Assembly (NCBI RefSeq): GCF_900890425.1
Contig: NZ_CAAHFG010000001.1
Location: 2,356,001 to 2,420,000, forward strand
Source: Pontiella desulfatans
GTDB taxonomy: Bacteria > Verrucomicrobiota > Kiritimatiellia > Kiritimatiellales > Pontiellaceae
Direction of reading: 5' to 3'
DNA length: 64,000 nt
Part shown: positions 13,557-61,715 of the stretch, one piece after another
How positions within the stretch are numbered: the first letter of the stretch is position 1
Layout of the letters: the number at the start of each line of letters is the position of its first letter
The notes under the pieces: generated by a model
What the model saw: only the letters and a program-made list of their open reading frames with translations
Databases searched by the model: none
What the model was told of the DNA's origin: nothing
Program-made: the position numbers and the translations under genes

Positions 13557-14900
13557 TCATCTCACGTAACACGGATATCCGGTATAGAAGTTGTGCCGGA
13601 TCGTCGGCTTCGGAAGCGGGTAGTGGCTGAGGTAGTCGTAAAACTTTGCCCAGCTCATGCTTCGCTTCTGGCTCCGCCGGTTCAACCATTTGCGCACCCG
13701 CCCCAGCGTCAGGCTGTAGTAGCTGGCGATGCATCGGTAGTTGCCGCTCACTCCGTAGTACTGGTAGTGCCCCCGCAGCTTGGCGCTTAGGCTTTTCCAC
13801 CATTCCTTGGTTTTAGTGCGGTTCCGGTTTTCTTTCAACCACTCGTTCAGATCCCGGCATTTGGCCGCATATTTCTTCCGGCTGGTCTTGCGACCGAGCT
13901 TAAAGCGGCCCTGCCGGGTGCGGTCGCAGTAGTGGGTGAACCCAAGGAAGTCGAACGTGTTCGGGCGGCGATCCTGCCGGACGGCGTTTTCGGCTTCGTA
14001 ACGTCCGAAGCTCATCCGCCTGCTTTTCTCCGGATGGATTTCCAGCGCGTAGCGCTCGAAGCGCTTTTTCAGCACTCGCTCAATGCGTTGCGCATCCTGC
14101 TCGTATTGCACGACGCAGACGAAGTCATCTGCATAGCGCACGAGTTCACAGAACCCTTTCACGTGGGCCTTCACCGTTTCCTTGAACCAACTATCCAGCA
14201 CGTGGTGCAGGTAGATGTTAGCGAGGATCGGGCTAAGGATCGATCCCTGCGGCGTTCCCTCTTCCGTTTCCACCAGCAACCCTCCATCGACATAGCCTGC
14301 TTTCAGGAACTTCCCGATCAGGTGCAACAGCGAGCGATCCTTGACGCGGATTCGCAAGAAATCCAGCAGGTGCTCGTGCGACACGTTGTCAAAGAATCCC
14401 CTGATGTCGGCATCGATAACATGGTTGACCGGCTTGAACATCACCAGTTCGTTCAACTCCTTCAAAGCCTGATGGGCGTTGCGCTTCGGCCGGAAGCCGA
14501 AAGACTGATTCGAGAAGTCCTGCTCATGAATACTTTCGAGTATCCATACGATACCGCGCTCGACGATCTTGTTCTCGATCGCCGAGATCCCGAGCGGACG
14601 GAACTCGCCGCCCCCTTTAGGGATGTATACCCGCCGGGCCGGAATCGGACGAAAGCGTTTCGCCTTCAGCCGTTCGACCAACGCGTTCAGGTTCTCTTCC
14701 AGATTTTCCGCATACCCATGCCAGCTCTGGTTATCCTGCCCCACCGCCTTATTCCTGTTAAGGCTCATGAAGCACTTCCGAAGGAACGCAACGTTCAGCA
14801 GATGAGCTAGGCTCGTAAACTGCATCGCGGCATTCCTCTTCGCGTGTTCCGCTATAAGGGAAAGCTTGAGCTCTGTTGTTTCCATTTCTGTGTATGGCAT
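13557..14900 (-). CDS. ltrA: Group II intron reverse transcriptase/maturase
   Basis: 447 residues encoded inside the intron. Reverse transcriptase blocks are visible in order: RPLGISAIENKIVERGI, FGFRPKRNAHQAL, VIDADIRGFFDNV, EGTPQGSILSPILANIYL and the YADD catalytic motif at 256-259, then HPEKSR and NTFDFLGFTHY. The maturase (X) region contains the group II maturase phrase AKLRGHYQYYGVSGN. No HNH endonuclease domain follows, so mobility would rely on a replication-fork or similar endonuclease-independent route. All RT blocks appear intact. Confidence 0.95.
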   Translation of the reverse strand: MPYTEMETTELKLSLIAEHAKRNAAMQFTSLAHLLNVAFLRKCFMSLNRNKAVGQDNQSWHGYAENLEENLNALVERLKAKRFRPIPARRVYIPKGGGEFRPLGISAIENKIVERGIVWILESIHEQDFSNQSFGFRPKRNAHQALKELNELVMFKPVNHVIDADIRGFFDNVSHEHLLDFLRIRVKDRSLLHLIGKFLKAGYVDGGLLVETEEGTPQGSILSPILANIYLHHVLDSWFKETVKAHVKGFCELVRYADDFVCVVQYEQDAQRIERVLKKRFERYALEIHPEKSRRMSFGRYEAENAVRQDRRPNTFDFLGFTHYCDRTRQGRFKLGRKTSRKKYAAKCRDLNEWLKENRNRTKTKEWWKSLSAKLRGHYQYYGVSGNYRCIASYYSLTLGRVRKWLNRRSQKRSMSWAKFYDYLSHYPLPKPTIRHNFYTGYPCYVR

Positions 14901-22869: not shown

Positions 22870-24326
22870 CACATTCATCCCATAGGTGGTGCTGACGGAG
22901 AGTAAAACCCCGTTTTTGTTAAGGTTTCTGATGTCCGATTCATTTAGTCAATTCCGATTTTTTGTTGAAGGTTAACCATGGTTCCGCGCTTTGTGCATAT
23001 GGCTGTCCCACAGCTCTTAGACAAACCCCGGCAGATACGCCTGTTCCGGCGCACCCCGTATGCGGCCGGGCGGTTTGGCTGTCCCATAGGAATCCAGCAA
23101 GGCGGGCAGGTTCCACCGGCGCCAAAGCACCGCGCGCACAACAGTGAACTGCCGCTTGAAGCTGTGCTCCCATCCGTGCATGAACGCGAGGCAGCGCATC
23201 AGCAGGTGGACCAGCAGCCCCATCCAGATCTGCCAGCGCACGGCGTTGGCGCTGTAGCCCAGGAAGTCGGAGAGTTGGAGCGTCTGCTTGATCTCCTTGA
23301 AGAACACCTCGATGTCCCAGCGGCAACGGTAGAGTTCGGCGACCGTCCACGCGCTCCACTCCAGGTGATTGGTGATGAAGGCGATTTCGACATCCTTGCC
23401 GTTAATCTCGACCAGCGCCACGACCCGGCGCAACTCGCACGGATAGGCTTTCTTCGATGCTTCGACCACCATCTCGATGACCTCGTCGCGCAGGATGCGC
23501 TTGTGCCCGGTGGTTTCGAGGGTGCGCACCACCTTGTACTGCATGTTGTCCTTCGCCCGGCCAACCCACCAGACACCGCGCACCGTCAGCTCGAAAAGAT
23601 GCTTGAACTTGTTGTAGGCCTTGTCGAACACGGCGATTTCACCGGGTTTGAGCTCGGCGCACAGGCTTTGGGTCATCGTGCTGTCATGGTGCTTCGCCGT
23701 GTCGATGATGGCGCACCGGGGCAGGAAGCTTTGCAGGTCGAGGCGCAGGTGGCACTTGGCCGCAGCCTTGCGGCGGCGATGCTTCGCCCAGTCCATGCAG
23801 TTGGCGACGAGCTGGATCGTGGTCGAGTCCAGCGCATGGATCGTCTTGCTGAAGCGCCGGAGGTATCCGCGCCGAACCTTGCCCTTCGCGAAGCCCGGGA
23901 CTGTATCCATCAGATGCTTCATCATGCACCAGTAGAGCTCTTCGGCCATGTCCGCGTTGCGGATCTTGTTCGCGTGGCTCAGGTTGTTACGCGACGGAGG
24001 AACCGCGCCGCGGATGGTAGAGAGCGCCGCCGCGTTCATCTGGAGCGCGTCGCACACATCGTTGAGTCCGAGTGCATGGGAGAAGTGGGCGTACAGCAAA
24101 GAAACCACATGGCTCCACGGCGTGTACGTCCGGCTTTGAATGTCCACGCCATGCTTCTGCGCAAGGCTCGACACCATGTGTCCGGGAATCAGATTGCACA
24201 ATTGTTTCAAGGTTGTATACCTATGTCCGGCTGGCTTGTGTTTATGTTGTTTTTTCATACCCTCCGAGTGGAGGATTTCAACGGCACATGCCAGCCTTTT
24301 TTTTCAATATCTATGGGATGACAATG
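22870..24326 (-). mobile_element. IS4-family insertion sequence, copy 1 (1457 bp)
   Basis: Terminal inverted repeats of about 16 bp begin CACATTCATCCCATAG at one end and CATTGTCATCCCATAG at the other. A perfect 9-bp target duplication AACCAAATT flanks it (22861-22869 and 24327-24335). It encodes one transposase on the minus strand and disrupts a PEP-CTERM gene. It is nearly identical to copy 2 at 58793 and has the same length as both other copies. Confidence 0.95.
23017..24258 (-). CDS. IS4-family transposase, copy 1
   Basis: 413 residues. The N-terminal domain (LIPGHMVSSLAQKHGVDI, YTPWSHVVSLLYAHFSHALG) is typical of IS4-family transposases. DDE residues are expected at HALDSTTI, AVFDKAYN and the Glu of YRCRWDIEVFFKEIKQTL; the last segment also holds the Y-R-E-K signature of the family. 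The frame is intact, so it may be active. The large reading frame on the opposite strand is a mirror of this gene, not a second protein. Confidence 0.95.
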   Translation of the reverse strand: MKKQHKHKPAGHRYTTLKQLCNLIPGHMVSSLAQKHGVDIQSRTYTPWSHVVSLLYAHFSHALGLNDVCDALQMNAAALSTIRGAVPPSRNNLSHANKIRNADMAEELYWCMMKHLMDTVPGFAKGKVRRGYLRRFSKTIHALDSTTIQLVANCMDWAKHRRRKAAAKCHLRLDLQSFLPRCAIIDTAKHHDSTMTQSLCAELKPGEIAVFDKAYNKFKHLFELTVRGVWWVGRAKDNMQYKVVRTLETTGHKRILRDEVIEMVVEASKKAYPCELRRVVALVEINGKDVEIAFITNHLEWSAWTVAELYRCRWDIEVFFKEIKQTLQLSDFLGYSANAVRWQIWMGLLVHLLMRCLAFMHGWEHSFKRQFTVVRAVLWRRWNLPALLDSYGTAKPPGRIRGAPEQAYLPGFV

Positions 24327-24563: not shown

Positions 24564-26603
24564 TTACTCAGCCAGGTATGAACGATAGAACATCTGATCT
24601 TCCGTGATGTCGTTGGTAATGATGACTTCGCCGCCGGTGCCGAGCACGGTAGTCGTGGAGTTGCTCCACGTTCCAGTGGTCAGGCTTTCCCTCGACTGAA
24701 CCCCATAATTAAACCCGGCTTCCGTCGGCCAGCTCAGTGCAATCTGGGTTCCGCCGGACAGAATCTGATAAGAAACATCGCCGACACTCGAAGGAGGAGC
24801 CGAACTCGAGATGGAGAAGGTGAAGTCCACCGTCGAAACGCCCCAGCGAATTGTGCCACCTACAGCAGCGGTCACATAAAGCGGATTCATCGAGAAGTCG
24901 GTTACCGTTTGAGTGTCCCCGTTCCATTGATATCCATTCAATCCCGACCCCGAGCCAAGGATCATTTGGTGAGAATGGCTCGTATATTCAGCAGCCACTA
25001 TCCCGCTGAAACCAAGGAATGCCGCATCAAGCGCACCCGCCGTTCCTGTTACCGAAATGTTTTCAACGGTATAGATCAACGTATCTCCGGGATTTATGCC
25101 CTGAGAACCGGTGCCTGTAATCCATGCCAATCCAGACGGATTATTCTTATAGGTAGGGTTATCGGATGCATCACCCACCGTTTCCGAGCCGAAGGTAATG
25201 TTTGCCGAAGATGCTCCCGGTGTTGTGCTAAACGAGGTGGTTGTTCCGTTTACCGCCGAAACACGGACATCAAAGCTGAGCGTATCGTTAAGCGTGTCAC
25301 CGTCCAGATCCATATCCGTATAGCTGATTGAGTATACAAAATCCCCGCTGGCCGAAACGCCGGACACCGCCAGACCGTTGGTGGAGCCGGCAACATTAAG
25401 CAGGTTTGAAGCCGATAATGTATCCGCAGAAAGCGCGCTGAAGACCACCTCGGTGCCCAGCGGCAACACATCGATCAAAACCGTTGCAAGTTCACTGTCA
25501 AGTACACCGTCGTTGACCTTAAAGGTAAAGCTATCGGAACCGACATATCCACTGTTCGGCGTATACGTTAAAAAATTGGTATCCGTAGCCGACACCATTC
25601 CGTTGGTCGGCAGATCAACCACAGCATACGTCAGGTTGCTGCCCTCCGGATCACTGCCGGAAAGCGTAATATCAAGAGCAACATCCTGCAAGGTACTGAC
25701 GCTCTGCGGTGCTGCACTCGGGGGAATGTTCGTTACCGTTATGGTTACGGTGGCGAGCTCACTGGTATACACCCCGTCAAACACCGTAAACGTAAATTGG
25801 TCCAGGCCCTCGAAGTCGGTATCCGGTTCATACGTCAAATCCGGCGCAGTTCCGGACAGGGCGCCATTGGTCGGTGAATCAACCACCGTATACGTCAAAT
25901 TGGTAACGCCGTCCGGATCCATTCCGGTCAGCGTGATCGGCAGATCCACATTCGGCACCGTGGATACATCCTGCCCGTCTGCAATAGGAGCTACATTGGT
26001 CACCACCCCGACCACTTCGGAATGAAGCCCGAAAGAGAGGTCGCGATCCCCCCATGCAGCATCACCCGTAGGCAACGTGGCTGGATTGACCGCACGCAGC
26101 ATGGTGCCGCCGGCATAAAGGTCATCTGCGTAACTAACGGTCAGCCTGTTCTCCGGCCCCGGATCAAACCAGAACTGGAAGGCATAATCGCCGACCGGAA
26201 GGACGATATCAGCATCCAGGTTCAGCGAAAAACGGGATGCATTGGTTAATGTGATTCCAGTCAGATCGAATGTTTCCAGCAGATTCGTGGAAGTAATCAC
26301 TCCGTTGGTGCTATATTCTCCGATCCACAAATTGAGGGTGTTTGTTCCATCCGAATAGGTATGATCCCCCGCCTTGACCAAGGTCACCGCCCGGAGCGTC
26401 GTTTCATTGGTCAAACTGAAGGACTGCCCCAAGAGGACAAGATAATTTGTTGTGTAGCACCAGGCTGAGGATGTCTCCGTCGCCACATCCTGTTTAACGA
26501 TAAATGTACCGTCGGGATCAAATCCCAGGTTCTGCTGAACCGTGCCCGCCATGACACTCCCTGCCGTCAAAGCGCATAATGTAAGTGCATATCTCTTTTT
26601 CAT
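24564..26603 (-). CDS. Secreted protein with two cadherin-like repeats and the shared uncharacterised domain
   Basis: 679 residues from MKKRYALTLCAL at 26603, chosen because AGGAGG precedes it. After the signal peptide (ending near VMA) comes a beta-sandwich (about 25-200). Two cadherin/Big-type repeats follow (about 201-289 and 290-385; both contain TNGALSG or TNGMVSA and D-x-F-T-F-x-V-x-D-G). Next is the uncharacterised domain (about 386-600; YTDMDLDGDTLNDTLSFDVRV, YTVENISV, SHSHQMILGSG) and a C-terminal W/Y/S-x-x-L module ending MFYRSYLAE. No enzyme domain is seen; it is probably adhesive or glycan-binding at the surface. It is first in the minus-strand run and diverges from the sensor kinase. 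Confidence 0.85.
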   Translation of the reverse strand: MKKRYALTLCALTAGSVMAGTVQQNLGFDPDGTFIVKQDVATETSSAWCYTTNYLVLLGQSFSLTNETTLRAVTLVKAGDHTYSDGTNTLNLWIGEYSTNGVITSTNLLETFDLTGITLTNASRFSLNLDADIVLPVGDYAFQFWFDPGPENRLTVSYADDLYAGGTMLRAVNPATLPTGDAAWGDRDLSFGLHSEVVGVVTNVAPIADGQDVSTVPNVDLPITLTGMDPDGVTNLTYTVVDSPTNGALSGTAPDLTYEPDTDFEGLDQFTFTVFDGVYTSELATVTITVTNIPPSAAPQSVSTLQDVALDITLSGSDPEGSNLTYAVVDLPTNGMVSATDTNFLTYTPNSGYVGSDSFTFKVNDGVLDSELATVLIDVLPLGTEVVFSALSADTLSASNLLNVAGSTNGLAVSGVSASGDFVYSISYTDMDLDGDTLNDTLSFDVRVSAVNGTTTSFSTTPGASSANITFGSETVGDASDNPTYKNNPSGLAWITGTGSQGINPGDTLIYTVENISVTGTAGALDAAFLGFSGIVAAEYTSHSHQMILGSGSGLNGYQWNGDTQTVTDFSMNPLYVTAAVGGTIRWGVSTVDFTFSISSSAPPSSVGDVSYQILSGGTQIALSWPTEAGFNYGVQSRESLTTGTWSNSTTTVLGTGGEVIITNDITEDQMFYRSYLAE

Positions 26604-26696
26604 TTTTCCTCCTGCGTTTATATATGAACGTTTAAGCGGGGCGGCCCACGCCTTCCCTGATTCAAGGTCTAAACTAGATCCAAAAAAAATCCTGCA

Positions 26697-26716
26697 CATC
26701 GCTATTTTCAGCGATG
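26697..26716. promoter_or_regulatory. Inverted repeat in divergent promoter region (operator candidate)
   Basis: CATCGCT-attttc-AGCGATG is a 7-bp inverted repeat about 94 bp upstream of the cadherin-repeat protein gene and about 124 bp upstream of the sensor kinase gene. A 236-bp intergenic region between divergent genes is a plausible place for the NarL-type regulator to bind. No other clear signal was seen there. Confidence 0.3.
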
Positions 26717-26839
26717 CCCAAAAAAAGCCACTCCTGATATAAAGGAAGGTAGCAGGGTGGGTTCAAACACGAGAAGGATGATTTATATCCTTAATAATCG
26801 GCTGAATTCTGATATGGATGAGCTAACTTAAGACGAACT

Positions 26840-28801
26840 ATGCGAATATTGTTAACAATAAGCCTGATTGCGGCCGTCATTCCGTTGCTTTTTGCTGCGG
26901 AGATTTCCCAACCCTTGGAAAATCTTTCTCTAAGCCAGTTGGAAGTGCTGCGTGATGAGGTGGCGGAGGAATTAAGTGATCTGGCCAGCTATAGTATGCG
27001 CAGCGGCATTGGTACCGCCGGGCACCGGTCTACATATCACCCGGACCCGCACCACACCGAATGGATCAGGGTTACGCTGGAGTCCGAAACCCTCATAGAT
27101 CAGATCATCCTCACCCCGATTATTCGGAGGGATCCCAAACTTGGACTTCATGGCGATGGTTTTCCGGTAGATTTCAGAATACTGGCCGGAACGGCCGATC
27201 ATCCGGAAGCCGTGGAAATTGCCTCTTTCACAGAAAAGGACTGTCTACTTCCGCGCATCGCGCCTTTAAGAATTGACTTCGAAGCCATCAAAGCGTCCTG
27301 GGTTAAACTCGAAGCCACAAAACTCTCCTCCAGGGACTGGGACAATCAATATATCCTCCAGCTCTCGGAAATCATGGTGTTCAGCGGTCCTGAAAATGTG
27401 GCGCTGCACTGCCCGGTTGAAGTGTTTTCCAGCACAGGCCACAACAACCCTTCCCGAGCAAAGACGACGTTGGTGGACGGACAGGTTCCCTATCTGATGG
27501 ATGCCGCCGGCGGCGATAAAAGCATTGCGTTTATGAGTCATGTTGATGGCATCAAAGATCCCTCTCTAACCATTGACCTTGGGCAATCCCGGAATATCAA
27601 CCGCATACATTTCCACACGGCGGAACTGTCCGACACCATTCCCCAATCAGCAAAACCGGGGGTCGGCATTTCTTCTCATATACAGATTGAAGGTGCCGAA
27701 AACTCCGATTTTTCCGATGCGGTCGTACTCATGGAATATAAGCGCGAACATGTATTCGATGCGGGACCGATCATCATGAGACGCTTCCCCGAAACCCGCT
27801 GCCGCTATTTTCGCATGAACATCATAGAACCCTATGTCGACGGGATACACTCCACCTTTGGCTGCGCAGAAATTGAACTATTTTCCAACGGTCGAAACGT
27901 GGCCAAGGGAAAAACGGCCGCAATCAACTACACGTTCAGTTTGCCCAACAGAACACTGAGCGCCATTACAGACGGTCGGAACCTCTACGGCGAGATCCTG
28001 CCGATACGGGACTGGATGGAACAACTCGCCCGAAGGCACGACCTTGAATCCGCCCTGCCCCGGATTTATGAGGAGATTGAAAATCGCTACATCGCCCAAC
28101 GAAAGAACCTGCAGCTCGTCAGCTGGCTCGCGGTCCTGCTCGCCGGAGGAATCGGCTTCACGATCCTCATCAGCCGCAACCTCCAGATGCGCCAGATTGT
28201 CCGATTAAAAACCCGGTTTGCCGCGGACCTGCACGATGAACTCGGCGCCAACCTTCATGCCATCGGCCTGCTCGGCGACATTGCCAAAGACGCCATCCAT
28301 TCGCCGGATATCCTGGTTAAAGCCGTTGATAAAATCCGGGCACTGACGGAGCGCAGCGGTGAGGCCGCCCGACACTGCGCGGAAATGCAGGAGGCCGAAA
28401 TTTTCGGGAAACTCCCGGACGACATGCAGCGTACCGCCAACCGGATCATGACCGACATCGACTTTAACCTATCCATCGAGGGCGAAGAGATTCTCGAAAA
28501 ACTGCCACCCCGCACCAAAGCGGATCTATTCCTTTTTTACAAGGAAAGCCTCGTCAACATCAGCCGCCATTCCGGAGCAGATAAAGTCGACGTCCACCTT
28601 TACACGGAACATAAAAAAATAATTCTGGTCATATCCGACAATGGACAAGGCCTTTCCGGTGACGTCCCGTCCTCGCTCAAGCGCCGCGCACGACTGCTCG
28701 GCGGTCAGGTTTCCTCCGGCACATCGGAAACCGGCGGAGCCAGCATCATCCTGACCTTCAGGCCCGGCAAATTTAAATTCAGGAGAACCGACAAACGATG
28801 A
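26840..28801 (+). CDS. Membrane sensor histidine kinase with discoidin-like ectodomains
   Basis: 653 residues. A signal peptide or first membrane segment (1-19) is followed by two galactose-binding-like (F5/8 type C) domains, about 45-185 and 186-370. These are recognisable by WVKLEATKLSSRDWDNQY, ISEIMVF-type endings and YFRMNIIEPYVDG with CAEIELFSNG. A transmembrane segment lies at about 425-445 (SWLAVLLAGGIGFTILIS). The kinase core is the HisKA_3/NarX-LiaS type: RFAADLHDELGAN with His465 as phospho-acceptor, the N-box KESLVNISRHSGA, and ISDNGQGL. The ectodomain suggests direct sensing of a carbohydrate outside the cytoplasm. The stop overlaps the response regulator start (ATGA), so the two form one unit. 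The kinase C-terminal ATPase region is short but complete. Confidence 0.93.
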   Translation: MRILLTISLIAAVIPLLFAAEISQPLENLSLSQLEVLRDEVAEELSDLASYSMRSGIGTAGHRSTYHPDPHHTEWIRVTLESETLIDQIILTPIIRRDPKLGLHGDGFPVDFRILAGTADHPEAVEIASFTEKDCLLPRIAPLRIDFEAIKASWVKLEATKLSSRDWDNQYILQLSEIMVFSGPENVALHCPVEVFSSTGHNNPSRAKTTLVDGQVPYLMDAAGGDKSIAFMSHVDGIKDPSLTIDLGQSRNINRIHFHTAELSDTIPQSAKPGVGISSHIQIEGAENSDFSDAVVLMEYKREHVFDAGPIIMRRFPETRCRYFRMNIIEPYVDGIHSTFGCAEIELFSNGRNVAKGKTAAINYTFSLPNRTLSAITDGRNLYGEILPIRDWMEQLARRHDLESALPRIYEEIENRYIAQRKNLQLVSWLAVLLAGGIGFTILISRNLQMRQIVRLKTRFAADLHDELGANLHAIGLLGDIAKDAIHSPDILVKAVDKIRALTERSGEAARHCAEMQEAEIFGKLPDDMQRTANRIMTDIDFNLSIEGEEILEKLPPRTKADLFLFYKESLVNISRHSGADKVDVHLYTEHKKIILVISDNGQGLSGDVPSSLKRRARLLGGQVSSGTSETGGASIILTFRPGKFKFRRTDKR

Positions 28802-29463
28802 AACGGAAAATTAAAATCATGCTCGTGGAAGATAATCCAGAATATCGCGATGTAATAGATTTCGCCATAGAGCATGAAGAAGAAATGGAACTCATCAATC
28901 AGTTTGGACTGGCCGAGCGCGCACTCCAGAGTTTCCAAAGCATGGAAACCCGGACCGAACCCGACATTATCCTGCTCGACCTGAACCTACCCGGAATATC
29001 CGGCCTTGAAGCGCTTCCTCATTTAATTAAGGCCGCGCCGAATTCAAGCATCATCATTCTGACCCAATCCGATCAGGAAGCCGACGTACTGCGTGCGATT
29101 GCCGAGGGCGCCAGAGGGTACCTGCTTAAATCAGCCACCGTGCAGCAGATCAAAGACGGCATCAGGACCGTTGCGCAAGGGGGATCAACCCTCGACTCCA
29201 AAGTTGCCCGCTTCATGATGGACACCCTCAAAAACAAACTCCCGAACCTCAACGCAGAAAACCTACTCTCCGACCGGGAACTTGAAACACTCCTTCTTAT
29301 GGGCGAAGGTCTTGCGCGGAAAGAGATCGCGCAGAAGCTGAAGATCAGCGTTTATACCGTGGACACCCATATCCGCCACATCTACGACAAGTTTAATGTC
29401 CCCAACTCCGCCGCCGCCGTCCACTGCGCCCACCGCCTCGGCCTCTTCCATCGCGATAACTGA
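28798..29463 (+). CDS. NarL/LuxR-type response regulator
   Basis: 221 residues. The receiver domain (about 5-120) has the acidic pair ED at 11-12, phospho-acceptor Asp61 in DIILLDLNLPG and the conserved Lys in GYLLKSAT. A LuxR-type helix-turn-helix follows at about 155-215 (LSDRELETLLLMGEGLARKE, ISVYTVDTHIRHIY). It starts inside the kinase stop codon, the usual translational coupling of a partner pair. It is likely to control the flanking minus-strand polysaccharide genes. It converges on the GH97 gene with only 9 bp between the stops. Confidence 0.95.
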   Translation: MKRKIKIMLVEDNPEYRDVIDFAIEHEEEMELINQFGLAERALQSFQSMETRTEPDIILLDLNLPGISGLEALPHLIKAAPNSSIIILTQSDQEADVLRAIAEGARGYLLKSATVQQIKDGIRTVAQGGSTLDSKVARFMMDTLKNKLPNLNAENLLSDRELETLLLMGEGLARKEIAQKLKISVYTVDTHIRHIYDKFNVPNSAAAVHCAHRLGLFHRDN

Positions 29464-47187: not shown

Positions 47188-48903
47188 TTATTTCGCGGCA
47201 TTATACGTGAGGCCCATACCCCGATCATAATAAAAACTGCCTTTCCGAAGCCGCAGGTCGAAAGGCGGCATGTTACGTCCGTCCCACGTCATATGTGCCC
47301 AGTATTGCGTGGCGGTATTTGGATTAAAATCGCCCGCATGGTCTTGCAGGCATTTAAAGAATTTGGTGTTCCCGCCGGCATCATGGAATATGACGATATC
47401 CCCTTTAGCATAGGGGATAAACTGTCCATCCTTGTTTTTCCCGGAAGATTTCGGCGTGTTTTTATACTGGGCCGCCCAAGCACTGACGGTGCGCCAATCA
47501 AAGCCATCGGCAAACCCGGAATTCTCGAACAAAAGGGCCGGAGCGGGTTTCCGTTCGTTCCCTTTCTGCCTGACATTGCTGCCATCTCCGGAACTCATAA
47601 AATATAGGTCCTTGCCTTTTGGGTAGATGTTCCCATCGAAGAGGATGTCCGTGTTTTTATTCCCCAGCTTGAAGAAGCCCTCCGTTGATTCGTCGGATAC
47701 GATTACCGAATCATCCGACTCCGGAACCGAGATATCCCCATAGATGTTATCGGAAAAAATGTAGGGCGTGATGCCATCGCCTGGCCACACATACCCCATC
47801 GTCGTCCGGCTAAAGCCATAGAAGTTGTTGGCGAGCGTGACGGGCTTATCCTGGCTTGGGTTGGTTCTCCCCGGCCCGGCATCGCGATAGCGGAAATTAT
47901 GGAGTGCCCCGTTCGTGCCGGCGAAAATGTTGTTCCGGATCGTGATACCGCCTTCGACAAACGAGAGCTGGTGCAGGTTATCCTGATATCTTGCCTGGAA
48001 AGGATGACGGTAAAACGTGGCCGAACCAATGGCCACATTGTTTTCAATGACCGATCCCTCGGCCAGGTTATCGGTTTGCAGTGCCTCGGCGCCCGTGAAT
48101 GCGATAATATTGTTTTTCAAGGTCAGCTTTGTGATGTCCTGATTATGCGCCTTCGTTGAGTAGGAAATATAAAAGGCTTCGCCTTCGCCAAAGCCTGCAA
48201 AACAGTCCTGAATATCAACGGCGACTTCCCCGGGATCGGCCGGGTTATCGGTCTTCACATTGAACGAGGCAAAGTAGCCGCCCCAACTGGCCACATAATC
48301 GACTTTGACCGATTTAAAATTGCGGATGCGAACGCCGTTGCCATATTTTTTATAGTAGATGATGCCAGACCATCTTGGGTTACCCCAGAGCCCGTAGCGC
48401 TCATAGTAATCGCCCGTTCCCAGATTGGCGCCATCGTCATGCCCGAGGAACTTCGGATCTCCGGTTTGATGGTCGGGATCATATTTTCCCGTTAGATGCA
48501 AATAATCAAAGTTATACAGTTCGAGCCCACGGTATTGATTCGCTTCGTTGCTATTCCCCCAACGCACTTGTCCGCCAAGGTTCGTGATCAACGTAGGCTT
48601 TTCGGCTGTGCTCCAGCAATCGGCGCCGTTGATTAGGATACGGTCATAATCACCGGCATAGATGAGGATCTTTTTCCCGACCGGTAGTTCGATTCTAAGA
48701 TGCTTGGAGCCACCTGCCGCATAAATATCATCCCCGTTGTCATTGTTCCCTTGAAAGAAAATATAATCCCCTTCGTTAACGGAGGGCCAATAAGCCGCGT
48801 CTTTCAACGTGGCATAGCGATTCTCGGTAATGTCTGGCATGGCATGAGCCAGATTCACGACACAAAGAGTCAGTACAAAGAAAAGATGCCATCGGTTTTT
48901 CAT
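47188..48903 (-). CDS. Secreted right-handed beta-helix protein with C-terminal CBM5/12-like domain
   Basis: 571 residues with signal peptide ending near AHA. The central part (about 60-440) shows parallel beta-helix repeats (LTLKNNIIAFTGAEALQT, ITIRNNIFAGTNGALHN) as in polysaccharide lyases of PL6 and related families. The last 70 residues (about 495-560; YAKGDIVIFHD, FFKCLQDHAGDFNP, YWAHMTW) match the pattern of small CBM5/12 binding domains. A lyase or hydrolase acting on an acidic glycan is likely, but catalytic residues cannot be assigned by eye. It starts 4 nt after the upstream sulfatase stop. Confidence 0.82.
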   Translation of the reverse strand: MKNRWHLFFVLTLCVVNLAHAMPDITENRYATLKDAAYWPSVNEGDYIFFQGNNDNGDDIYAAGGSKHLRIELPVGKKILIYAGDYDRILINGADCWSTAEKPTLITNLGGQVRWGNSNEANQYRGLELYNFDYLHLTGKYDPDHQTGDPKFLGHDDGANLGTGDYYERYGLWGNPRWSGIIYYKKYGNGVRIRNFKSVKVDYVASWGGYFASFNVKTDNPADPGEVAVDIQDCFAGFGEGEAFYISYSTKAHNQDITKLTLKNNIIAFTGAEALQTDNLAEGSVIENNVAIGSATFYRHPFQARYQDNLHQLSFVEGGITIRNNIFAGTNGALHNFRYRDAGPGRTNPSQDKPVTLANNFYGFSRTTMGYVWPGDGITPYIFSDNIYGDISVPESDDSVIVSDESTEGFFKLGNKNTDILFDGNIYPKGKDLYFMSSGDGSNVRQKGNERKPAPALLFENSGFADGFDWRTVSAWAAQYKNTPKSSGKNKDGQFIPYAKGDIVIFHDAGGNTKFFKCLQDHAGDFNPNTATQYWAHMTWDGRNMPPFDLRLRKGSFYYDRGMGLTYNAAK

Positions 48904-58769: not shown

Positions 58770-58792
58770 GATTATACCAAATTAAACTGATT

Positions 58793-60249
58793 CATTGTCA
58801 TCCCATAGATATTGAAAAAAAAGGCTGGCATGTGCCGTTGAAATCCTCCACTCGGAGGGTATGAAAAAACAACATAAACACAAGCCAGCCAGACATAGGT
58901 ATACAACCTTGAAACAATTGTGCAATCTGATTCCCGGACACATGGTGTCGAGCCTTGCGCAGAAGCATGGCGTGGACATTCAAAGCCGGACGTACACGCC
59001 GTGGAGCCATGTGGTTTCTTTGCTGTACGCCCACTTCTCCCATGCACTCGGACTCAACGATGTGTGCGACGCGCTCCAGATGAACGCGGCGGCGCTCTCT
59101 ACCATCCGCGGCGCGGTTCCTCCGTCGCGTAACAACCTGAGCCACGCGAACAAGATCCGCAACGCGGACATGGCCGAAGAGCTCTACTGGTGCATGATGA
59201 AGCATCTGATGGATACAGTCCCGGGCTTCGCGAAGGGCAAGGTTCGGCGCGGATACCTCCGGCGCTTCAGCAAGACGATCCATGCGCTGGACTCGACCAC
59301 GATCCAGCTCGTCGCCAACTGCATGGACTGGGCGAAGCATCGCCGCCGCAAGGCTGCGGCCAAGTGCCACCTGCGCCTCGACCTGCAAAGCTTCCTGCCC
59401 CGGTGCGCCATCATCGACACGGCGAAGCACCATGACAGCACGATGACCCAAAGCCTGTGCGCCGAGCTCAAACCCGGTGAAATCGCCGTGTTCGACAAGG
59501 CCTACAACAAGTTCAAGCATCTTTTCGAGCTGACGGTGCGCGGTGTCTGGTGGGTTGGCCGGGCGAAGGACAACATGCAGTACAAGGTGGTGCGCACCCT
59601 CGAAACCACCGGGCACAAGCGCATCCTGCGCGACGAGGTCATCGAGATGGTGGTCGAAGCATCGAAGAAAGCCTATCCGTGCGAGTTGCGCCGGGTCGTG
59701 GCGCTGGTCGAGATTAACGGCAAGGATGTCGAAATCGCCTTCATCACCAATCACCTGGAGTGGAGCGCGTGGACGGTCGCCGAACTCTACCGTTGCCGCT
59801 GGGACATCGAGGTGTTCTTCAAGGAGATCAAGCAGACGCTCCAACTCTCCGACTTCCTGGGCTACAGCGCCAACGCCGTGCGCTGGCAGATCTGGATGGG
59901 GCTGCTGGTCCACCTGCTGATGCGCTGCCTCGCGTTCATGCACGGATGGGAGCACAGCTTCAAGCGGCAGTTCACTGTTGTGCGCGCGGTGCTTTGGCGC
60001 CGGTGGAACCTGCCCGCCTTGCTGGATTCCTATGGGACAGCCAAACCGCCCGGCCGCATACGGGGTGCGCCGGAACAGGCGTATCTGCCGGGGTTTGTCT
60101 AAGAGCTGTGGGACAGCCATATGCACAAAGCGCGGAACCATGGTTAACCTTCAACAAAAAATCGGAATTGACTAAATGAATCGGACATCAGAAACCTTAA
60201 CAAAAACGGGGTTTTACTCTCCGTCAGCACCACCTATGGGATGAATGTG
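58793..60249 (+). mobile_element. IS4-family insertion sequence, copy 2 (1457 bp), first of a tandem pair
   Basis: Same ends as copy 1 (CATTGTCATCCCATAG start, CTATGGGATGAATGTG end). A perfect 9-bp duplication AAACTGATT flanks it at 58784-58792 and 60250-60258. The right-hand duplication is also the only sequence between this copy and copy 3. The element lies upstream of the LamG-GH116 gene and points away from it. Confidence 0.95.
58861..60102 (+). CDS. IS4-family transposase, copy 2
   Basis: 413 residues, identical to the copy 1 product except for Arg instead of Gly at residue 11. All catalytic segments (HALDSTTI, AVFDKAYN, YRCRWDIEVFFKEIKQTL) are intact. The start ATG follows the element's own GGAGGGT. 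Confidence 0.95.
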   Translation: MKKQHKHKPARHRYTTLKQLCNLIPGHMVSSLAQKHGVDIQSRTYTPWSHVVSLLYAHFSHALGLNDVCDALQMNAAALSTIRGAVPPSRNNLSHANKIRNADMAEELYWCMMKHLMDTVPGFAKGKVRRGYLRRFSKTIHALDSTTIQLVANCMDWAKHRRRKAAAKCHLRLDLQSFLPRCAIIDTAKHHDSTMTQSLCAELKPGEIAVFDKAYNKFKHLFELTVRGVWWVGRAKDNMQYKVVRTLETTGHKRILRDEVIEMVVEASKKAYPCELRRVVALVEINGKDVEIAFITNHLEWSAWTVAELYRCRWDIEVFFKEIKQTLQLSDFLGYSANAVRWQIWMGLLVHLLMRCLAFMHGWEHSFKRQFTVVRAVLWRRWNLPALLDSYGTAKPPGRIRGAPEQAYLPGFV

Positions 60250-60258
60250 AAACTGATT

Positions 60259-61715
60259 CATTGTCATCCCATAGCTATTGAAAAAAAAGGCTGGCATGTG
60301 CCGTTGAAATCCTCCACTCGGAGGGTATGAAAAAACAACATAAACACAAGCCAGCCGGACATAGGTATACAACCTTGAAACAATTGTGCAATCTGATTCC
60401 CGGACACATGGTGTCGAGCCTTGCGCAGAAGCATGGCGTGGACATTCAAAGCCGGACGTACACGCCGTGGAGCCATGTGGTTTCTTTGCTGTACGCCCAC
60501 TTCTCCCATGCACTCGGACTCAACGATGTGTGCGACGCGCTCCAGATGAACGCGGCGGCGCTCTCTACCATCCGCGGCGCGGTTCCTCCGTCGCGTAACA
60601 ACCTGAGCCACGCGAACAAGATCCGCAACGCGGACATGGCCGAAGAGCTCTACTGGTGCATGATGAAGCATCTGATGGATACGGTTCCGGGCTTCGCGAA
60701 GGGCAAGGTTCGGCGCGGATACCTCCGGCGCTTCAGCAAGACGATCCATGCGCTGGACTCGACCACGATCCAGCTCGTCGCCAACTGCATGGACTGGGCG
60801 AAGCATCGCCGCCGCAAGGCTGCGGCCAAGTGCCACCTGCGCCTCGACCTGCAAAGCTTCCTGCCCCGGTGCGCCATCATCGACACGGCGAAGCACCATG
60901 ACAGCACGATGACCCAAAGCCTGTGCGCCGAGCTCAAACCCGGTGAAATCGCCGTGTTCGACAAGGCCTACAACAAGTTCAAGCATCTTTTCGAGCTGAC
61001 GGTGCGCGGTGTCTGGTGGGTTGGCCGGGCGAAGGACAACATGCAGTACAAGGTGGTGCGCACCCTCGAAACCACCGGGCACAAGCGCATCCTGCGCGAC
61101 GAGGTCATCGAGATGGTGGTCGAAGCATCGAAGAAAGCCTATCCGTGCGAGTTGCGCCGGGTCGTGGCGCTGGTCGAGATCAACGGCAAGGATGTCGAGA
61201 TCGCCTTCATCACCAACCATCTGGAGTGGAGCGCGTGGACGGTCGCCGAACTCTACCGTTGCCGCTGGGACATCGAGGTGTTCTTCAAGGAGATCAAGCA
61301 GACGCTCCAGCTCTCCGACTTCCTGGGCTACAGCGCCAACGCCGTGCGCTGGCAGATTTGGATGGGGTTGCTTGTCCACCTGCTGATGCGCTGCCTCGCG
61401 TTCATGCACGGCTGGGAGCACAGCTTCAAGCGGCAGTTCACTGTTGTGCGCGCGGTGCTTTGGCGCCGGTGGAGCCTTCCCGCATTGCTTGAATCCTATG
61501 GGACAGCCAAACCGCCCGGTCGCATACGAGGTGCGCCGGAACAGGCATATCTGCCGGGGTTTATCTAAGAGCTGTGGGACAGCCATATGCACAAAGCGCG
61601 AAACCATCGTTAACCTTCAACAAAAAATCGGAATTGACTAAATGAATCGGACATCAGAAACCTTAACAAAAACGGGTGTTTACTCTCGGTCAGCGCCACC
61701 TATGGGATGAATGTG
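60259..61715 (+). mobile_element. IS4-family insertion sequence, copy 3 (1457 bp), second of a tandem pair
   Basis: Same length and ends as the other copies. On its left is AAACTGATT; on its right ACTGATTCG, which matches the duplication only after dropping two bases. The last 500 bp differ from copies 1 and 2 at many positions, while the first 900 bp are almost identical, so the copy is mosaic. Confidence 0.95.
60327..61568 (+). CDS. IS4-family transposase, copy 3
   Basis: 413 residues with intact DDE segments. Near the C-terminus it reads RRWSLPALLESYG where the other copies read RRWNLPALLDSYG, and it ends LPGFI instead of LPGFV. Most other nucleotide changes in this half are silent, so the protein has been under selection or has been repaired by conversion. 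Confidence 0.95.
   Translation: MKKQHKHKPAGHRYTTLKQLCNLIPGHMVSSLAQKHGVDIQSRTYTPWSHVVSLLYAHFSHALGLNDVCDALQMNAAALSTIRGAVPPSRNNLSHANKIRNADMAEELYWCMMKHLMDTVPGFAKGKVRRGYLRRFSKTIHALDSTTIQLVANCMDWAKHRRRKAAAKCHLRLDLQSFLPRCAIIDTAKHHDSTMTQSLCAELKPGEIAVFDKAYNKFKHLFELTVRGVWWVGRAKDNMQYKVVRTLETTGHKRILRDEVIEMVVEASKKAYPCELRRVVALVEINGKDVEIAFITNHLEWSAWTVAELYRCRWDIEVFFKEIKQTLQLSDFLGYSANAVRWQIWMGLLVHLLMRCLAFMHGWEHSFKRQFTVVRAVLWRRWSLPALLESYGTAKPPGRIRGAPEQAYLPGFI

Follow-up and report, generated by a model that had tools for sequence, protein, structure and literature searches.

The window analysed here is a 64,000-nucleotide stretch of Pontiella desulfatans (C1:2356001-2420000; the genome comprises 8.66 Mb on six contigs), and at its positions 26840-29463 a membrane-bound sensor histidine kinase is encoded together with a NarL-type response regulator. 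A preliminary description of this DNA, made from the sequence alone, had presented the pair as a sensor system with a discoidin ectodomain lying in a polysaccharide cluster. We report that a palindromic sequence between the kinase gene and the divergently oriented gene upstream of it is the predicted operator of the regulator, and that this divergent gene, coding for a secreted protein, is its likely target. The features concerned are, in window coordinates:

24564-26603, minus strand: predicted target gene, a secreted protein with Bacterial Ig (Big_9) domains, with its ATG at 26603 after GGAGG
26671-26676, minus strand: TAGTTT, predicted as -10 box for the divergent gene, at 30 nucleotides (nt) from the operator centre
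26694-26717, plus strand: predicted operator GCACATCGCTATTTTCAGCGATGC, 24 bp, centre at 26706/26707, 7 of 8 arm positions complementary
26738-26743, plus strand: TATAAA, a possible -10 box for the operon of kinase and regulator; it stands at 31 nt from the centre and fails the strict TAnnnT rule
26840-28801, plus strand: sensor histidine kinase, 653 amino acids (aa), from open reading frame (ORF) calling, Pfam, phmmer, Foldseek and an AF2 model
26981-27385, plus strand: jelly roll 1, residues 48-182, modelled with a CBM32/discoidin fold (AF2 models; VIA match to 4zy9; sub-cut-off Pfam match at 69-167)
27389-27895, plus strand: jelly roll 2, residues 184-352 (AF2 models; only structure matches spanning both domains)
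28115-28177, plus strand: transmembrane helix, approximately residues 426-446, within one long helix (389-484), from a hydrophobic stretch seen by eye and DSSP of the AF2 model
28232-28234, plus strand: phospho-acceptor His465 (DLHDELG), invariant in 76/76
28798-29463, plus strand: NarL-type response regulator, 221 aa, in ATGA overlap with the kinase (Pfam, structure matches, gene order)

The product of 26840-28801 consists, in order, of a signal peptide, two discoidin/CBM32-like jelly rolls, one transmembrane helix and a kinase part of DesK/LiaS type. It is a sensor kinase of the HisKA_3 type (NarX/LiaS/DesK), filed by motif and fold despite Pfam matches below cut-off (HisKA_3, 3.1e-4 and 21.7 bits against a gathering score of 24; HATPase_c, 0.0029 and 18.5 bits against 26.4), because a gathering score is a detection threshold and not a defining trait. 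DesK was matched at 3.3e-8 by phmmer and at 3.3e-11 by Foldseek, the kinase core aligned to VraS/DesK with a Z of about 16 in VIA-align, and His465, Glu569, Asn573, Asp600, Gly602 and Gly604 were invariant in 76 of 76 aligned kinase sequences. An AF2 model of the full-length kinase, built with 76 sequences (pLDDT 87, pTM 0.69), has two beta jelly rolls, a long membrane-crossing helix and a DHp/CA core. The ORFs of kinase and regulator overlap by ATGA at 28798-28801; in the regulator both REC (3.2e-20, 72.8 bits against 30.2) and GerE (2.5e-16, 59.5 against 23.5) exceed their cut-offs, and its nearest solved structures are VraR and NarL. The earlier assignments, a NarX/LiaS-type kinase coupled through ATGA to a NarL-type regulator, are thus borne out, the former by the DesK fold and the invariant His, N and G1 motifs. 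Nor is the observation due to chance, since near full-length relatives were matched in 79 loci, which were kept from 239 encoded relatives that two kinase-core patterns had picked up in named genomes. The regulator follows the kinase in 87 of 89 systems, both exceptions being contig ends, and the ORF upstream of the kinase is divergent in 68 of 85 (ORFs were chosen by length, so that some are short and may be spurious). A scan against a defence-system library gave no match.

When the intergenic regions were placed side by side, an inverted repeat of fixed layout and varying arms emerged, which reads CATCGCT-ATTTTC-AGCGATG in the window and, for example, TATCGCAC-GTTT-GTGCGATA or TATCCTGT-GTTT-ACAGGATA elsewhere. 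The layout TAYCC...GTTT...GGRTG is found again in front of related kinases from Verrucomicrobiota and from Planctomycetota. When a position model was fitted to 88 regions, 60 of them scored above 13 bits, with a consensus of roughly GCCTA[TC]CC[CT]N[CT]GTTT[AG]N[AG]GG[AG]TG and a mean best score of 15.6, against 8.3-9.2 in five shuffles. The number of regions above 6 bits (66, against 63-72 in the five shuffles) was uninformative as a control because the model refits itself to each shuffle, and it was replaced by a held-out test. To avoid circularity the training was restricted to 31 Pontiellaceae systems (25 sites), and the model was applied to 53 others, from which near-duplicate contigs and one short region had been dropped. 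A site was found in 28 of these 53, and in 26 of the 28 a -10 box stood 30/31 nt away, whereas in 20 draws of random stretches from the same loci the averages were 1.3 sites and 0.5 with a -10 box, and the maxima 3 and 2. In 53 distinct sites the arms paired at 6.06 of 8 positions on average, compared with 4.32 for re-dealt arms and a maximum of 4.77 in 2000 shuffles; operator pair 5/20 was T-A in 40 sites, C-G in 12 and T-G in one. In the genome of P. desulfatans itself 39 motif matches, some of them counted on both strands and some lacking a -10 box, were obtained in 642 kb around the ten kinases, whereas control stretches amounting to 398 kb gave 2. The region 26604-26839 had already been put forward as the place of the regulator site, and the predicted operator at 26694-26717 falls there and sharpens that claim. 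In three loci (L030, L080 and L094) the kinase has a gene ahead of it in tandem, and the operator stands upstream of that gene and not between divergent genes.

The -10 boxes had no role in the fitting of the motif. On the divergent side 49 of 58 systems have a TAnnnT that begins 30/31 nt from the palindrome centre, the counts at other offsets having a mean of 0.66 and a maximum of 4; on the kinase side 21 of 58 have it (mean 0.82 and maximum 5 at other offsets), and in 18 systems it is found on both sides. With the first base of the -10 box taken as -12, the operator centre comes to lie near -42 of the divergent gene, which is the position of class II activators in bacterial promoters. Just after the divergent -10 box, at about 26650-26665 of the window, there is also a conserved stretch close to TGAATCGGGGAAGGC (divergent strand), and similar stretches occupy the same place, at or near the predicted transcription start, in L025, L027, L071, L087, L076 and L137.

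The predicted operator arms differ between paralogues, keep their complementarity and track the recognition helix of the regulator. Further sites (23 in number) were found upstream of other genes in the same loci, many of these genes having signal-peptide-like starts as judged by eye, and they matched the kinase-side site of their own locus at 7.17 of 10 arm positions as against 4.44 for other loci (0/5000 permutations). For 22 of the 23 the -10 box was at the expected offset and the locus had a kinase-side site; that of L026 came from the own-genome scan, lies 10.7 kb off and has its -10 box at another offset. Covariation was analysed in 45 systems under 85% identity, L118 and L033 being dropped for want of a readable helix-turn-helix (HTH). 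Wherever regulator residue 190 is Thr, operator position 5 is T (27 of 27), and the 18 systems with another residue have C in 14 cases and T in 4. Residues 189, 190 and 193 align to NarL residues which we take to be base contacts. A mutual-information ranking gave the recognition helix no special place (15, 198, 161 and 41 came first, then 186 and 190), and since it was not helix-specific we relied, with the caveats given below, on a partial Mantel test, in which five recognition-helix positions correlated with arm similarity at r 0.296 (0/2000 permutations) after removal of the receiver and the remaining HTH. Among nine regulators of the P. desulfatans genome, the truncated one of L033 excluded, these five positions are 27% identical, compared with 60% for the HTH and 61% for the receiver. 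The ten copies of this genome form ten separate pure clades in the tree (FastTree, midpoint root, no support values considered), and tree neighbours from different species share the same or similar operators: L032 and L075 have identical 24-mers, L031 goes with L098, and L025 shares its left arm with L113 and L068. As cross-species neighbours keep their operators while paralogues of one genome differ, a readable code between helix and operator is suggested.

In the window a single site passes 13 bits together with 5 pairs. A second candidate, at 47378, scores 14.7 bits with only 4 of 8 pairs and no -10 box, and those at 24255, 58841 and 60307 (10.6 bits) are one sequence inside insertion sequence (IS) copies, again with no -10 box. 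The pattern of the window operator (18 positions) has one exact match in the genome, which is the operator itself, two places with 2 mismatches and 23 with 3; by strand there were 19 matches forward and 7 reverse, against 6 and 1 for the reversed pattern. Because the operator is its own only exact match and the only passing site of the window, the likely target is the divergent Big_9 gene alone, or perhaps this gene together with others beyond the IS copy at 22978-24321. For this gene the start at 26603 was preferred over a longer ORF reaching 26699, as the latter would begin upstream of the predicted transcript.

The sequence by itself makes the ectodomain a weak call, because both F5/8 type C matches stay below cut-off (F5_F8_type_C, PF00754, 9.4e-5 and 23.0 bits against 28.2; F5_F8_type_C_2, 0.0013 and 19.8 bits against 27.8); domain 1 aligns to the F5/8 type C profile only from position 30 of 127. 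PF00754 being below its gathering score, we name the ectodomain CBM32-like and do not file it as a member. An AF2 model of the ectodomain (pLDDT 87.7, pTM 0.81) matches CBM32/discoidin structures, and on this model jelly roll 1 has the discoidin/CBM32 fold, its best structural match being the chitosan-binding 4zy9 (VIA, Z 11.8, 1.7 A, 100 residues aligned) and the next ones CBM32s solved with galactose or Tn antigen. Jelly roll 2 probably has the same fold; its matches are ones that span both domains: 7jnd and 8ayr at a root-mean-square deviation of 17-20 A, reflecting domain orientation, 8tn9 with Z 9.8 and 5.0 A over 218 residues, and the ZmpB CBM32-1/2 pair of C. perfringens. Neuropilin b1b2 is among the tandem-discoidin matches of Foldseek. 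Of the two F5/8 type C-like domains of the preliminary description the first is upheld by its fold, and the second is probable, as a modelled jelly roll. Residues 353-388 (27896-28003) carry NVAxGK...LTDGxNxYGxILP, which resembles the beginning (36 residues) of another discoidin domain, and domain 1 is without its start; a permuted or strand-swapped discoidin domain beside the membrane is possible. A profile test lent this no support: moving the segment ahead of domain 1 gave no gain for PF00754 in four proteins (18.1 to 17.2 bits for the window kinase; no F5/8 match with or without the moved segment in the other three).

Architecture, domain 1 fold, gene order, operator, arm complementarity, -10 spacing and covariation come from the sequence; to these we add, as what we infer, the phosphorylation, the direction of control (activation), the class of ligand and a former operon of the Big_9 gene with GHL15, fucosidase and sulfatase genes. 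Through its two CBM32/discoidin-like domains the single-pass kinase would sense a ligand outside the cell or in the periplasm, with a carbohydrate as the likeliest candidate, and would phosphorylate the co-encoded NarL-type regulator. A dimer of the regulator would bind the palindromic operator between the divergent genes, centred some 42 bp upstream of the divergent transcription start, and as a class II activator would switch on the divergent gene, here the one at 24564-26603 that encodes the secreted Big_9 protein; the same operator probably also serves the kinase operon. Since each paralogue has its own regulator-operator specificity, each sensor would control its own neighbour, and Pontiella would probably hold about ten sensor-regulator pairs, each activating its own surface or glycan gene. 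We give this explanation as a whole, from lectin-like sensor through regulator and operator to Big_9 target, a probability of about 0.6, the operator and target part taken singly being highly probable.

A number of observations weigh against this explanation. Of the held-out systems 25 of 53 had no passing site, and in the own genome a kinase-side site of at least 12 bits was present in 8 of ten systems: L028 (kinase HK04) has none in its intergenic region, and L030 (HK06) has sites upstream of the preceding gene instead. The window operator is among the weaker sites (13.2 bits with the position weight matrix), and the site of L026 has no strict -10 box. Six of the 23 extra sites (the second of L027 and those of L075, L106, L115, L125 and L136) agree with the kinase-side site of their own locus at no more than 5 of 10 arm positions. 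The choice of the five helix positions was made after the covariation table had been seen, random position sets reached 0.296 once in 400, and two regulator positions beyond the helix, 15 and 41, likewise track operator position 5, so that the signal is partly confounded by descent. Discoidin folds also bind proteins, peptides and lipids, and binding of any glycan by the sensor, fucoidan included, is a prediction. Among the ten own-genome paralogues, domains 1 and 2 of the ectodomain are 51% and 45% identical, to be compared with 55% for DHp and 51% for CA of the kinase. With conservation of the ectodomain thus close to that of the kinase, the idea that each copy reads a very different glycan is mildly disfavoured; all copies could recognise one glycan trait in common, for example a sulfated or fucosylated terminus, or the signal could be something other than an outside glycan.

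The jelly rolls may accordingly sense something other than a glycan, be it an outer-membrane partner protein or peptide or the cell's own exopolysaccharide, or may serve for dimerisation only, with the regulatory half unchanged. The discoidin domains of neuropilin, DDR1 and factor V/VIII among the fold matches speak for this, and the conservation of the ectodomain across paralogues suits a common signal; the closest single-domain matches, however, are chitosan-binding modules and CBM32s with galactose or Tn antigen, and several targets and neighbours are glycan genes. We regard a non-glycan signal as possible, if somewhat doubtful, and a carbohydrate ligand as evenly poised. Repression of the divergent gene, the direction being unreadable from the sequence, would agree with an operator whose end falls on the -35 place, yet a centre near -42 is the usual place of a class II activator, and we consider repression unlikely. 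Control of the entire sulfatase and glycoside-hydrolase cluster by this regulator, which the preliminary description had envisaged together with a regulated region at 58770-58800, draws on co-location in one cluster and on several other loci that have more than one operator with matching arms. In the window, however, only one site passes, the next genome matches carry 2 or 3 mismatches of 18, and there is no passing operator at 58770-58800; both of those proposals thus find no support, a cluster-wide regulon being improbable. The remaining idea, that the repeat is an RNA hairpin, an attenuator or a dispersed repeat, is very improbable, because, although complementary arms around an asymmetric GTTT centre of constant orientation could form a hairpin, the repeat lies upstream of the predicted divergent transcript start at a fixed distance from the -10 box, tracks the recognition helix and is rare in control stretches.

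Activation of one divergent surface gene by each pair, as we favour it, may be set beside known systems. A HisKA_3-type core with DesK fold and a NarL-type regulator are shared with DesK/DesR, LiaS/LiaR-VraS/VraR and NarX/NarL, and NarL-like half-sites in a palindromic site are a further likeness; the Pontiella sensors differ from these in their two discoidin/CBM32-like domains, in the divergent surface-gene target and in their many paralogues with diverged operators. The CBM32 or F5/8 type C modules of glycoside hydrolases share the fold of jelly roll 1, and probably that of jelly roll 2, of the ectodomain, which here is attached to a kinase and lies below the Pfam cut-off. The hybrid two-component systems in polysaccharide utilisation loci of Bacteroidota are likewise glycan-gene-linked sensor kinases, many per genome and each acting locally, and they unite kinase, receiver and AraC output in one chain with a beta-propeller sensor. 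Here, in contrast, kinase and regulator are separate, the output is of NarL and not AraC type and the sensor is discoidin-like, so that the design is indeed unlike the Bacteroidota hybrids, as had been claimed. RsgI anti-sigma factors have carbohydrate-binding modules as their outer parts and a cytoplasmic anti-sigma domain with a paired sigma factor. They and the Pontiella kinases are both paralogous sets of membrane sensors, the latter having a kinase as cytoplasmic part and a NarL-type regulator in place of a sigma/anti-sigma pair. One report describes the RsgI proteins of Clostridium thermocellum as paralogous membrane sensors for different substrates (PMC12203970). Another notes that in Pontiella agarivorans sulfatases and glycoside hydrolases have kinases (PF07730, PF02518), regulators and TonB receptors in their neighbourhood, and suggests substrate sensing (PMC10880615). 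A literature search, mostly of open-access texts, found no title on a discoidin-ectodomain kinase family or its operator; passages of PMC4807772 and a word search of PMC7356697 likewise gave nothing on them.

The genome of P. desulfatans has ten close full-length kinases, namely the window copy and nine at 43-55% identity, and fourteen further distant matches at E of 0.001 or less, several of them to the kinase part only. In the stretches of the distant kinases (L034-L040) no site was found at 13 bits and 5 pairs. Kinase matches at 1e-20 occur in 14 of 58 genomes of relatives, and in a sample of the phylum the ectodomain profile matches 20 of 387 genomes and 14 of 197 genera (own genome included in both surveys; at most 5 candidates scored per genome in the latter). 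The 79 kept loci belong mostly to Pontiellaceae, Opitutia, Verrucomicrobiales/Akkermansiaceae bins and Rhodopirellula-type planctomycetes, the few bins labelled Gammaproteobacteria or Actinomycetota resembling near-duplicates of Opitutia contigs. From the 68 divergent genes 60 were scanned, after removal of six shorter than 150 aa, a transposase copy and a duplicate contig, and they include 10 TonB plug proteins, 4 sulfatases, 4 Big_9, 4 PKD, 3 alpha-L-fucosidases (GH29) and 2 GHL15. Whether lectin-ectodomain sensors across Verrucomicrobiota and Planctomycetota follow one rule, each pair owning one operator and one or a few surface glycan genes with a helix-arm specificity code, we judge to be a matter of equal odds. 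If so, the surface gene under the command of each sensor could be told from the operator across a whole genome, and these phyla would have a counterpart of the SusCD/hybrid two-component logic of Bacteroidota, which bears on how sulfatase-rich marine Verrucomicrobiota and Planctomycetota choose the polysaccharide genes they express. Because each sensor has a predicted operator, promoter and target, the wiring from sensor to target would be readable from genomes pair by pair, and the diverged yet alignable regulator-operator pairs offer natural material on the insulation of paralogous two-component systems.

The cluster of the window contains sulfatases, GH29, GH43, GH95, GH97, three GH116-type proteins, GHL15, an alginate-lyase-like protein and CBM6/35 and LamG modules, in agreement with the earlier statement that the pair is embedded in a polysaccharide cluster. 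Sulfatases number 15 in the nine stretches of close paralogues (0.84 per 10 kb; the stretches of L027 and L028 overlap). The 20 control stretches also hold 15 (0.38), seven stretches of the distant kinases hold 11 (0.79 per 10 kb), and 33 of the 79 named-genome loci contain one or more (0.47 per 10 kb). The sulfatase neighbourhood was rejected as functional proof, being only about two-fold over the control (rank test p 0.011) in a sulfatase-rich genome, which has at least 150 sulfatase matches among 555 candidates.

Elsewhere in the genome, L168 (C1:995901-1015900) has five operator-like places with differing arms, three of them with a -10 box at the right distance; they lie 13-28 kb from the nearest family kinase and are read as a target cluster. 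In L033 (11264-13780) the regulator of HK10 ends early, at 164 aa matching residues 1-151, and a piece resembling its C-terminal part (139-220) follows after an ORF of 490 aa, as if the gene had been split by an insertion. Within the sulfatase cluster of the window, 13557-14900 (minus strand) encodes a reverse transcriptase (RVT_1, 1.3e-34), probably of a group II intron, and three IS copies with a DDE transposase (DDE_Tnp_1, DUF4372) occupy 22978-24321, 58798-60141 and 60264-61607. Between the Big_9 gene and the GHL15, GH29 and sulfatase genes lies the copy at 22978, and from their order and strand the genes beyond it (GHL15, fucosidase and sulfatase) were perhaps once in an operon with the Big_9 gene. 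ORFs sharing the start of the IS transposase occur also in L026 and L032, and in L032 the copy lies between the paralogous kinase and the next gene of the divergent side.

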